A stretch of 64,000 nt of DNA from Candidatus Cryptobacteroides merdavium (GTDB lineage Bacteria > Bacteroidota > Bacteroidia > Bacteroidales > UBA932). Below, in pieces: positions 24,670 to 43,928 of this stretch. Under the pieces are notes generated by a model. It made no database searches and had not been told where the DNA came from. It saw nothing but the letters and a program-made list of their open reading frames with translations. How positions within the stretch are numbered: position 1 is the stretch's first letter; each line of letters begins with the position of its first letter. The translations under genes were made by a program, and so were the position numbers. Location: assembly GCA_017694755.1 (NCBI GenBank), contig JADIMO010000087.1, forward strand, positions 1 through 64,000, written 5' to 3'.

Positions 24670-25308
24670 TCAGCCTACCACCCAGACCAGGACATGCCTG
24701 TCAAAAGTGATGTAGCTGAGTTCAAAATCCTCTTCGTACCCGTCCTTGTGGATGAATGTCGCGTCAAGTTCACCTTCGTCTTTCGGATTGAATCTTTTTA
24801 CCCTGATCTGCTCTGCAAAGTCCACCTTGCTTTGGGACATCCTCTTGAATATGGCTTCCTTGGCGCACCAGTAGAGTGCGAGCTGCTCGTTAAGTCTGTC
24901 GTCCTCGTCAAGGTCTTCCCTTTCGTCCTCGGAGAGCGCCTTTTCCTTTACCGTGCTGAAGTCCCTGTCCACCGACTCCATGTCAATGCCGAGATCTTCC
25001 TCCTGATGGGTGATGATGGCCACATATCTGTCGGTGTGTGTGATGCTTATGTTGGTTATGCAATTTTCGAGGAACGGCTTCCCGTTGTCATGGTGGCTGA
25101 GGTACACCTTGTCTTCAAACACTTCGTTGAGCAGGGCGCGGACGGCAAGCCTCTGCTTCCGCATGTTTTCATTCCTTATGAGGGATATCTCCTCCATCTC
25201 GTCTGACGGCACCGAACTCAGCTGTATGAGTTCCTCTTCCGTTTCGGTTATCTTCCATACCGAAACTTCTGCCTTGTTGTCAAGTGTTTTTCTAAAATAC
25301 AGTCCCAT
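24670..25308 (-). CDS. 4'-phosphopantetheinyl transferase superfamily protein
   Basis: A 212-residue Sfp-type transferase that moves phosphopantetheine from CoA to a Ser of acyl or peptidyl carrier proteins. The two signature motifs are visible: GIDMESVDRDF (Mg-binding GID, about 103-113) and WCAKEAIFK (about 147-155). The two-domain length is Sfp-like rather than AcpS-like. No carrier protein gene is nearby. A long structured leader of about 230 nt separates its ATG from the nearest promoter and may itself be an independent RNA. Confidence 0.9.
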   Translation of the reverse strand: MGLYFRKTLDNKAEVSVWKITETEEELIQLSSVPSDEMEEISLIRNENMRKQRLAVRALLNEVFEDKVYLSHHDNGKPFLENCITNISITHTDRYVAIITHQEEDLGIDMESVDRDFSTVKEKALSEDEREDLDEDDRLNEQLALYWCAKEAIFKRMSQSKVDFAEQIRVKRFNPKDEGELDATFIHKDGYEEDFELSYITFDRHVLVWVVG

Positions 25309-25339
25309 TATAATAAAGACATATCAATTCAAGGTCATG

Positions 25340-25545
25340 ACAAAGTGTCCCCGGTGACTCCAATATACGACAATCCTGTGCGTGCCGACCAGGCACACAC
25401 AAGGCAACGCTCCGATTCATCATCGGAGTCCGCATTAAGTATCATATAGATGCGGTCCGACAGCGGATCTTCTGAGATTGATTCCGCCGCTGGCTGATTC
25501 GTCAATATAGGACTGGGAGGTTCCACTTGTCTTACAATAATTAAT
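25340..25545 (-). ncRNA. Candidate structured RNA, five helices
   Basis: On the minus strand, a closing helix joins 25496-25514 with 25357-25376 (imperfect; matching blocks AGTCC, ATAT, GAC, AATC). Enclosed in order are: CAGCGG/CCGCTG (25461-25466 with 25487-25492); CCGCAT/ATGCGG (25430-25435 with 25450-25455); CTCCGAT/ATCGGAG (25410-25416 with 25422-25428); and a 9-bp stem with one wobble (25378-25386 with 25392-25400). Gaps between helices are only 1-9 nt. A promoter of the repeated CTCTCGG cassette begins transcription at about 25544. It could be a free ncRNA or a riboswitch-like leader of the transferase gene. I do not recognise it as 6S, SRP, tmRNA or RNase P. An open frame with only a TTG start overlaps it. 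Confidence 0.5.
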
Positions 25546-25550
25546 TTCCG

Positions 25551-25604
25551 CAAATATAGTCAGAAACCGAGAGCAGAGCAAATTTATTTGCTATGCCGAG
25601 GCGC
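25551..25604 (-). promoter_or_regulatory. CTCTCGG-spacer promoter cassette, copy A
   Basis: Minus strand: -33 TTTG (complement of 25579-25582), a 20-bp spacer containing GCTCTCGG (25567-25574), and -7 TATATTTG (25551-25558). The -33 element is one arm of GCAAA-TTTA-TTTGC (25578-25591). GCCGAGGCGC (25595-25604, plus strand) adds an upstream CTCGGC block. It drives the structured RNA candidate. Confidence 0.75.
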
Positions 25605-25649
25605 CACAGTATAAATGACCGTCAGGTCAAATATAGTCATTTTTTTTAT

Positions 25650-25696: not shown

Positions 25697-26692
25697 ATGA
25701 GTTTTTTGACCAATGACAAACTGACCATTGTCGGCGCAGCCGGAATGATCGGTTCAAATATGGCCCAGACGGCCATGATGATGAGGCTTACGCCTAATCT
25801 CTGTCTATATGACCCGTACGGGGCAGGTCTTGAGGGCGTGGCAGAGGAGATGTACCACTGTGCATTTGAAGGAGCCAACATCACTTACACCACAGACATG
25901 AAGGAGGCTCTTACAGGTGCAAAATATGTGATTTCATCAGGCGGAGCTCCGCGCAAGCAGGGAATGACCCGCGAGGATCTTCTCAAAGGCAACTGCGAGA
26001 TCGCCGAGCAGCTCGGAAAGGACCTCAAGGCATATTGTCCGGATGTGAAGCATGTGGTGATCATCTTCAACCCTGCTGACCTCACAGGTCTCGTGACACT
26101 TCTCCATTCAGGCCTTAAGCCTTCTCAGGTCACTACCCTTGCGGCTCTCGACTCCACCCGTCTCCAGAGTGCCCTCGCACAGGAGTTCGGTGTACAGCAG
26201 AGCACTGTGAAGAACTGCCACACCTACGGCGGGCACGGCGAGCAGATGGCAGTCTTCGCTTCCAAGGTGACTGTAGACGGCAAGCCTTTCTCCGAACTGC
26301 TCGGCACCAAGCTTCCTCTCGTAAGATGGGAAGAGATCAAGGGCAATGTGATCCAGGGCGGAAAGAGGATCATTGAGCTCCGCGGCCGCTCTTCATTCCA
26401 GAGCCCGGCATATGTTTCAGTTGAAATGATAGCTGCGGCAATGGGCGGAAAGAAGTTCGAATGGCCTGCAGGATGTTATGTGAATACAGAGAAATATCAC
26501 AATGTGATGATGGCCATGCCTACGGTAATCGACGAGACAGGAGTCCACTATGGTGAAATCGAGGGTACTGCAGAAGAAATGGCTGCCCTTGACGCATCCT
26601 ACGCACACCTTTGCGCAATGCGTGACGAGATCATCGGCCTCGGCATCATCCCGCCTGTGGCAGAATGGAAGACAGTCAATCCTAATCTCTGA
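25697..26692 (+). CDS. mdh: Malate dehydrogenase
   Basis: NAD-dependent malate/oxaloacetate interconversion, 331 residues, lactate/malate dehydrogenase family as found in Bacteroidales. The nucleotide-binding glycine motif is GAAGMIGS (12-19). Substrate/catalytic blocks are visible: NPADL, DSTRLQ, and the catalytic His in CHTYGGHGEQM (about 175-185). In anaerobic Bacteroidota it works in the reductive branch to fumarate and succinate. Codon usage is strongly biased (GCC, CTC, AAG, CGC), hinting at high expression. Confidence 0.94.
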   Translation: MSFLTNDKLTIVGAAGMIGSNMAQTAMMMRLTPNLCLYDPYGAGLEGVAEEMYHCAFEGANITYTTDMKEALTGAKYVISSGGAPRKQGMTREDLLKGNCEIAEQLGKDLKAYCPDVKHVVIIFNPADLTGLVTLLHSGLKPSQVTTLAALDSTRLQSALAQEFGVQQSTVKNCHTYGGHGEQMAVFASKVTVDGKPFSELLGTKLPLVRWEEIKGNVIQGGKRIIELRGRSSFQSPAYVSVEMIAAAMGGKKFEWPAGCYVNTEKYHNVMMAMPTVIDETGVHYGEIEGTAEEMAALDASYAHLCAMRDEIIGLGIIPPVAEWKTVNPNL

Positions 26693-32304: not shown

Positions 32305-32359
32305 CAAATATACGCAGAAGCCGAGAGCAATGCAAACTTGTTTGCAATTGCCGAGGCGC
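32305..32359 (-). promoter_or_regulatory. CTCTCGG-spacer promoter cassette, copy B
   Basis: Minus strand: -33 TTTG (complement of 32333-32336), 20-bp spacer with GCTCTCGG (complement of 32321-32328), -7 TATATTTG (32305-32312). The dyad GCAAA-CTTG-TTTGC is at 32332-32345, and GCCGAGGCGC at 32350-32359. It drives lolD-trmN6. The rest of 32243-32565 holds no gene that I can support. Confidence 0.78.
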
Positions 32360-32565
32360 AACAGTATAAAAGTCAGTCACGGGAACGGGCAAACATTACC
32401 GGGACAATGAGTCCATGAACATTTACGCAGATGTCATAGCCGAAGCCACTTGGCTTTCTGAAGCCGAAATAAACCTGTTGTAATCCTGAAAGCTGGGTGT
32501 ATAACGGATTTTTGTTCTGAACAGGCATAAAAGTGTTTGTTCAAAACATTTTTTTCTCAATTTTT

Positions 32566-43814: not shown

Positions 43815-43870
43815 CAGAATGTGGAGAGATTTGGCTGCTTGCAACCACACAAAAAAATGCTAAAATGTTG
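43815..43870 (+). promoter_or_regulatory. SAM-II riboswitch
   Basis: The conserved SAM-II core is visible: GTGG (43821-43824) pairs with CCAC (43845-43848). The loop carries GATTTGG...CTTGCAA, and GCTAAAA follows at 43859. TTTGGC (43830-43835) can pair with GCTAAA (43859-43864) to make the pseudoknot. SAM-II switches are known from Proteobacteria and Bacteroidetes and are usually off when SAM is bound. It precedes metK by 170 nt, with a terminator between them. Confidence 0.88.
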
Positions 43871-43928
43871 ACTTTATGGTCAATCCTGTTTCGACCGTTA
43901 TTCAATATTTATGTTTTTGTGTATATGG

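Follow-up and report, generated by a model that had tools for sequence, protein, structure and literature searches.

A dense cluster of predicted RNA helices lies upstream of a gene for a 4'-phosphopantetheinyl transferase (PPTase) in a 64,000-nucleotide stretch of Candidatus Cryptobacteroides merdavium DNA (the window), and raises the question of what this segment encodes. An initial annotation, prepared from this single sequence, described it as a compact five-helix RNA with its own strong promoter, either a novel non-coding RNA or a metabolite-sensing leader of the PPTase gene. Judged by comparison with its relatives, the supposed free-standing RNA is a short reading frame ahead of the PPTase gene.

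Organization of the locus

The relevant features of the locus are as follows.

24670..25308, minus strand: PPTase of the Sfp/ACPS type (PF01648, E 3.8e-10)
25338..25526, minus strand: leader ORF, 63 codons with a GTG start (VEPPSPILTNQPAAESISEDPLSDRIYMILNADSDDESERCLVCAWSARTGLSYIGVTGDTLS); stop codon at 25337-25335
25551..25582, minus strand: Bacteroidales-type promoter, with TTTG at 25582-25579, a 20-nt spacer and TATATTTG at 25558-25551
25697..26692, plus strand: malate dehydrogenase (MDH; PF00056, PF02866), the divergent neighbour, supported by synteny

The PPTase gene begins 26 nt after the leader stop codon, and the promoter is oriented along the minus strand towards it. The claim of a dedicated promoter stands in part: TTTG-20-TATATTTG is present on the minus strand, but its -33 half lies within a 77-bp dispersed-repeat insertion that is absent from five close relatives. 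In most leader homologues a TAnnTTTG box is located 20-32 nt ahead of the start codon, although over all homologues the distance spans 6-48 nt and in some no box is found within 60 nt. This variability indicates that the core element described below is tied to the start codon.

A reading frame conserved as codons

Relatives of the leader, 66-74% identical, are present in the genus Candidatus Cryptobacteroides, and each of these related sequences reads as a single frame with a GTG or ATG start immediately before a PPTase gene. A protein search of 400 genomes of the genus yielded ~95 clear homologues, and leader homologues occur in ~100 of its genomes; loci were selected by protein similarity and most of the genomes are metagenome assemblies. 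Among 104 leaders the start codons are GTG (84), ATG (19) and TTG (1), with no other; the median gap to the PPTase is 21 nt, and the PPTase is immediately downstream in all 104 full or near-full loci analysed.

The full-length set comprises 91 distinct homologues of 62-70 aa from Candidatus Cryptobacteroides. The leader frame is open in all 91, whilst each of the other frames contains stops in 83-91 of them. Differences between these sequences amount to 0.33, 0.30 and 0.51 at the three codon positions, an excess at the third, and pN/pS lies between 0.23 and 0.57 across the ORF. The consensus reads MEPPSPILT....AD..SDDPLS..IYMI........VCAYSARTGLSYIG..G...S, of which the terminal Ser is invariant in the full-length set; codons 43-56 have a pN/pS of 0.29. 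A second conserved block follows the N-terminal MEPPS.

25458..25475, minus strand: peptide block S-E/D-D-P-L-S, codons 18-23 (pN/pS 0.12)

The initial annotation had named conservation as the codons of a ~70-residue protein as the outcome that would speak against an RNA, and this is what was found: the structured stretch consists of the codons of a conserved protein of 63 aa, open in this frame only among its 91 homologues, rather than of a stand-alone non-coding RNA. The comparison shows the leader to be conserved as protein, and its identity as a leader ORF upstream of the PPTase is well supported.

Full-length forms are not universal. Of 131 genomes of the genus with a profile match, ~58 carry the leader at full length and most others only its first ~25 residues. 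Such short leaders consist of MEPPS and a retained S-E/D-D-P-L-S block followed by unrelated tails, and all 60 N-terminal-only loci fetched lie directly before the PPTase. The protein has no relative in Pfam, NCBIfam, PHROG or PDB, and its clear matches are confined to the PPTase locus. An AlphaFold model of modest quality (mean pLDDT 72) contains three strands at residues 25-57, with local pLDDT of about 80-86 over residues 41-60, and has no structural relative in the PDB at E 0.001 or better.

RNA structure within the codons

On the minus strand, 25340-25604 reaches a folding energy of -88.5 kcal/mol (z -2.96), a stability equalled by 2 of 200 dinucleotide shuffles. The plus-strand fold is weaker (z -1.84). 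The predicted five helices are present in the minus-strand minimum-energy fold as a closing helix around four hairpins, and almost the whole of this fold coincides with the conserved ORF.

25378..25400, minus strand: covarying hairpin GUGUGUGCC-UGGUC-GGCACGCAC, encoding VCAWSART
25493-25457, 25455-25430 and 25428-25410, minus strand: three further predicted hairpins, species-variable
25512-25499 with 25373-25359, minus strand: predicted closing helix, pairing codons 5-10 with codons 52-58

When the 91 leaders are compared with synonymous-codon shuffles, in which protein and codon set are unchanged, the native sequences fold more stably (mean z -2.31, SE 0.12, from related sequences that are not independent events). 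A stricter shuffle that also keeps the codon-junction dinucleotides gives a mean z of -1.76 (31 sequences), and control pieces of the same length give values of about 0 for MDH and of 0.3 and -0.5 for the PPTase interior. The first 195 nt of the PPTase gene are likewise more structured than their synonymous shuffles (z -1.31, SE 0.18). On a tree of the 91 sequences, the hairpin at 25400-25378 shows 25 compensatory changes over nine pairs, counted by parsimony without a codon-aware null and, given shared ancestry, as non-independent events. All 30 consensus pairs together show 30, compared with a mean of 2.3 and a maximum of 9 for random same-phase partners. An equivalent of this hairpin persists in one locus (L129) despite a diverged peptide. 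Covariation thus strongly supports this hairpin but not the closing helix, which is missing from the alignment consensus of the 91 leaders and has no covariation support; the three remaining hairpins show little or none. An association of CCT with ATA, at the third base of codon 6 and at Ile55, was considered as a sign of the closing helix as a conserved P1, but CCA shows no preference for ATT and the association looks like shared ancestry.

The leader mRNA is, from these comparisons, shown to be additionally selected for hairpins. Selection for structure is clear in full-length leaders; the short forms show less of it (z -1.28), and gldE together with the remnants from other genera described below lies close to baseline. 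This layer is thus not universal. It looks like a later addition in Cryptobacteroides, with the start element being older.

The PPTase start is slightly less paired with native than with shuffled leaders, which reveals no clear switch and does not favour sequestration of this start by the leader. Sequestration of the start codon was also considered, but the native value differs little from the shuffled one (0.80 versus 0.75). In some species CAGUCCUAU in the leader appears by eye to be complementary to the PPTase start AUGGGACUG, but this is lost where the gene starts AUGGCACU. A scan around the window leader found no terminator or mutually exclusive helix, the sole terminator-like match (25629-25616) being upstream of the leader. 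A possible terminator noted by eye in the genus g57 (CCUCCGG...GGAGGUUUUUU, L255-257) was not recovered by the coding-strand scan.

The first five codons

The most constrained part of the leader is its beginning.

25512..25526, minus strand: core element GTG-GAA-CCT-CCC-AGT (MEPPS), whose 15 nt also open gldE in sister genera

Codons 1-5, NTG-GAR-CCU-CC[C/G]-AGU, show almost no nucleotide variation across 159 of 162 Cryptobacteroides leaders and all 24 motif-bearing loci of sister genera. Codons 2-5 have a pS of 0.088, compared with 0.55-0.73 across the remaining ORF. CCT and AGT are invariant in 159/159 genus and 24/24 sister-genus sequences. In the pattern by which the start was located, the third bases of the second Pro and of Ser were unconstrained; at the first Pro, T or C was accepted for the first set and any base for the second. 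In four loci whole codons have been inserted just before CCTCCCAGT (L085, MKTEPPS; L130, MEKPPS; L229, VEQPPS; L239, MEQPPS), as would be expected if CCTCCCAGT is read as codons. Whilst the start codon drifts between TTG, GTG and ATG, the nucleotides of codons 2-5 do not change, even as the protein behind them is gained and lost.

The alignments show codons 1-5 to be conserved as nucleotides, and their near-unchanged state across eight genera suggests regulation of the downstream gene. The element has a single perfect copy in this genome, so no wider regulon was found there, and none of the matches inspected in other families of the order is at a PPTase.

Descent from gldE

The PPTase is also present in other genera of the family, many of which have TTG- or GTG-GAA-CCT-CC[C/G]-AGT ahead of it with a different remaining peptide. 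In two of these genera (g44 and g51) the core codons open a protein of 309-363 aa directly upstream of the PPTase. The one such protein tested (L288) matches GldE (TIGR03520, E 1.9e-58, residues 63-308), below the curated cut-off, and also CorC-type models. MEPPS is kept in 10/10 aligned GldE proteins, whilst the next 130 residues are strongly diverged. Remnants occur in g44, g45, g53, g56, g57 and g62, and one locus (L303) still displays a decayed gldE (LEPPSCLLDDYHPGRIVLIQ, 47 codons). In total the element was seen in eight genera, Cryptobacteroides included, and not at the examined loci of g42, g43, g46, g50, g55 and g59.

This distribution shows that codons 1-5 are a former gldE start and that gldE has been lost elsewhere; where it was lost, only its tip and a variable tail remain. 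Homology between leader and gldE rests on eight residues, position and nucleotide identity. A comparison of the leader with the GldE profile aligns only those N-terminal eight residues, so that the C-terminal half in Cryptobacteroides is not taken to derive from GldE and has another origin. A literature search found no text joining gldE and PPTase.

In g51 (L295-L297, L309, L311) GldE has diverged strongly across its N-terminal membrane part but keeps MEPPS and the CBS region, and gldE may here be caught midway in its decay. In several sister genera (L264, L265, L259, L274, L269, L270) the leader or PPTase is immediately preceded by a tRNA-like gene (GAGATATGGTGTAATGGTAGCA...), apparently for tRNA-Gln.

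A proposed ribosome-read leader

Nucleotide invariance, phase with the start codon, whole-codon insertions, variable promoter distance and strict position before the PPTase all suggest that the element is read by the ribosome during initiation or the first steps of elongation. The best explanation of the locus, to which we would give an even chance, is a leader ORF that is translated and acts in cis on the PPTase gene. Ribosomes would initiate at NTG-GAR-CCU-CC[C/G]-AGU and be slowed or destabilized at the Pro-Pro codons near the start, where CCU and the C after it form a CC[C/U]-[C/U] motif; the later acidic-Pro block S-E/D-D-P-L may act likewise. Progress of the ribosome would then decide which hairpins form, and this choice could set the extent of transcription or translation into the PPTase gene. 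By analogy, candidate signals are Mg2+, charging or m1G37 methylation of tRNA-Pro, EF-P or an EttA-like factor. The leader would then possibly resemble MgtL, the leader of mgtA, in that ribosomes are slowed by Pro and acidic codons close to the start.

In mgtL, an EPDP motif or early acidic residues destabilize ribosomes, an effect counteracted by EttA (PMC11282234), Pro codons act through EF-P (PMC6460261) and m1G37-dependent CC[C/U] codons occupy positions 3, 5 and 7 (PMC6335274); corL is a further published leader of this kind (PMC11552253). In common with MgtL, corL and mgtP of Enterobacteriaceae, the present leader is a short ORF with broadly similar early Pro and acidic codons ahead of a gene that it may regulate, and its RNA contains hairpins; corL shares the non-AUG start. 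Its conserved position directly upstream of one gene is that of an upstream ORF (uORF). Codon 3 is CCT followed by C in 183/183 sequences, which agrees with the start-proximal CC[C/U]-[C/U] of MgtL-type leaders; EPPS is invariant at residues 2-5, and adjacent acidic residues occur in S-E/D-D-P-L-S at 18-23. Among MgtL-type leaders the comparable features are EPDP at residues 2-5 or neighbouring acidic residues in the first 30; the two cases are alike in kind but not identical. A parallel to MgtL/mgtA is that the first gene of the ancestral operon, gldE, is CNNM/CorC-like. Despite this, there is no sequence homology to MgtL, the putative controlled gene is a PPTase, and EPPS replaces EPDP, MEPPS having a single acidic residue. 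The resemblance is one of kind rather than membership.

Other known systems resemble the leader in part. GldE (TIGR03520, a CNNM/CorC-type CBS protein) shares the place before the PPTase and five nucleotide-identical first codons, and some leaders retain further GldE N-terminal residues (LDDY, LTD). However, the leader runs for 23-70 codons before its stop and is not GldE in its C-terminal half; it also lacks the DUF21 and CBS domains, only the first ~8-10 residues aligning. The his and trp attenuators likewise combine a leader ORF, selected codons and hairpins, but here there is no single-amino-acid run related to the product, and the window leader yielded no terminator. Rfam riboswitch leaders such as SAM-II share a structured 5' region of one gene, whereas the present structure lies inside codons, is not kept throughout the genus and has no Rfam match. 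A SAM-II riboswitch is itself present in the window (43815-43873, plus strand, 62.7 bits).

A broader proposal is more tentative and, in our judgement, somewhat short of an even chance: that the 15-nt NTG-GAR-CCU-CC[C/G]-AGU is a portable ribosome-sensing element of Bacteroidales, which heads gldE in some genera, would outlast repeated gldE loss as a minimal leader ORF controlling the PPTase and, in one genus, has been reinforced by hairpins within its codons.

Bacteroidota ribosomes mostly operate without Shine-Dalgarno pairing and, to our knowledge, few leader peptides have been described in this phylum. The locus raises the questions of whether the first codons of an ORF serve in Bacteroidota as a sensor of tRNA-Pro state, EF-P or Mg2+, and why such sensing would be tied to carrier-protein activation. 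It is also a clear instance of the same nucleotides encoding both a protein and an RNA hairpin, and counsels care when non-coding RNA is predicted from single sequences.

Alternative explanations

A trans-acting small protein, composed of an N-terminal peptide and, in about half of the species, a three-strand beta domain (VCAWSARTGLSYIG), with position and RNA hairpins being secondary, is an appreciable though doubtful alternative. It would account for the low pN/pS of S-E/D-D-P-L-S (0.12) and of codons 43-56 (0.29), the invariant terminal Ser of the full-length set and the three modelled strands, and protein-level selection on the C-terminal part is needless for a pure leader. Yet this half is absent from about half of the genus, the database searches gave no relative, clear matches are at the PPTase locus only and codons 2-5 are constrained in nucleotides. 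That the ORF is incidental to a structured non-coding RNA or riboswitch appears improbable: frame conservation, start codons and pN/pS all oppose it, even though the fold is more stable than synonymous shuffles and the hairpin at 25400-25378 covaries, with an equivalent in the diverged L129. The closing helix lacks covariation, only one of the four hairpins inside it does not differ among species, and an Rfam search returned no gathering-level match, the best permissive hit scoring 16.3 bits against a cut-off of 60. The absence of an Rfam family, together with conserved codons and a structured half missing in about half of the genus, leaves no sign of a metabolite-binding riboswitch; of the proposed metabolite-sensing leader, what survives is a selected fold directly upstream of the PPTase.

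Two further explanations concern the core element. It could be a functionless relict, the gldE promoter and start persisting because deletions spared the operon promoter. This seems similarly improbable: descent from gldE is clear in sister genera and the tails vary widely, but 12 nt have remained invariant over eight genera while adjacent synonymous sites are near saturation, and both S-E/D-D-P-L-S and hairpin pairing are kept. Nucleotide-level invariance would also suit a DNA operator in which NTGGAACCTCCCAGT binds a transcription factor and overlaps the start codon by chance. We regard this as the most improbable reading, as NTGGAACCTCCCAGT is not palindromic, its distance from TAnnTTTG is variable where the box is found at all, and the element is in frame with the start, the four insertions before CCTCCCAGT being of whole codons.

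A dispersed repeat at the promoter

The insertion that contributes to the window promoter has features of its own.

25563..25639: 77-bp palindromic dispersed repeat, inserted, flanked by direct copies of CAAATATAGTCA (25551-25562 and 25628-25639)

The insertion sits exactly in the -7 box. The repeat has 25 matches in this genome; a further copy lies in the window at 32305-32379, ~80-bp tandem arrays occur in a congener, and copies are found in another family. Of the copies inspected, several stand immediately in front of genes and have TATATTTG on the side nearest the gene. The repeat has the appearance of an element whose insertion into -7 promoter boxes provides a -33 box.
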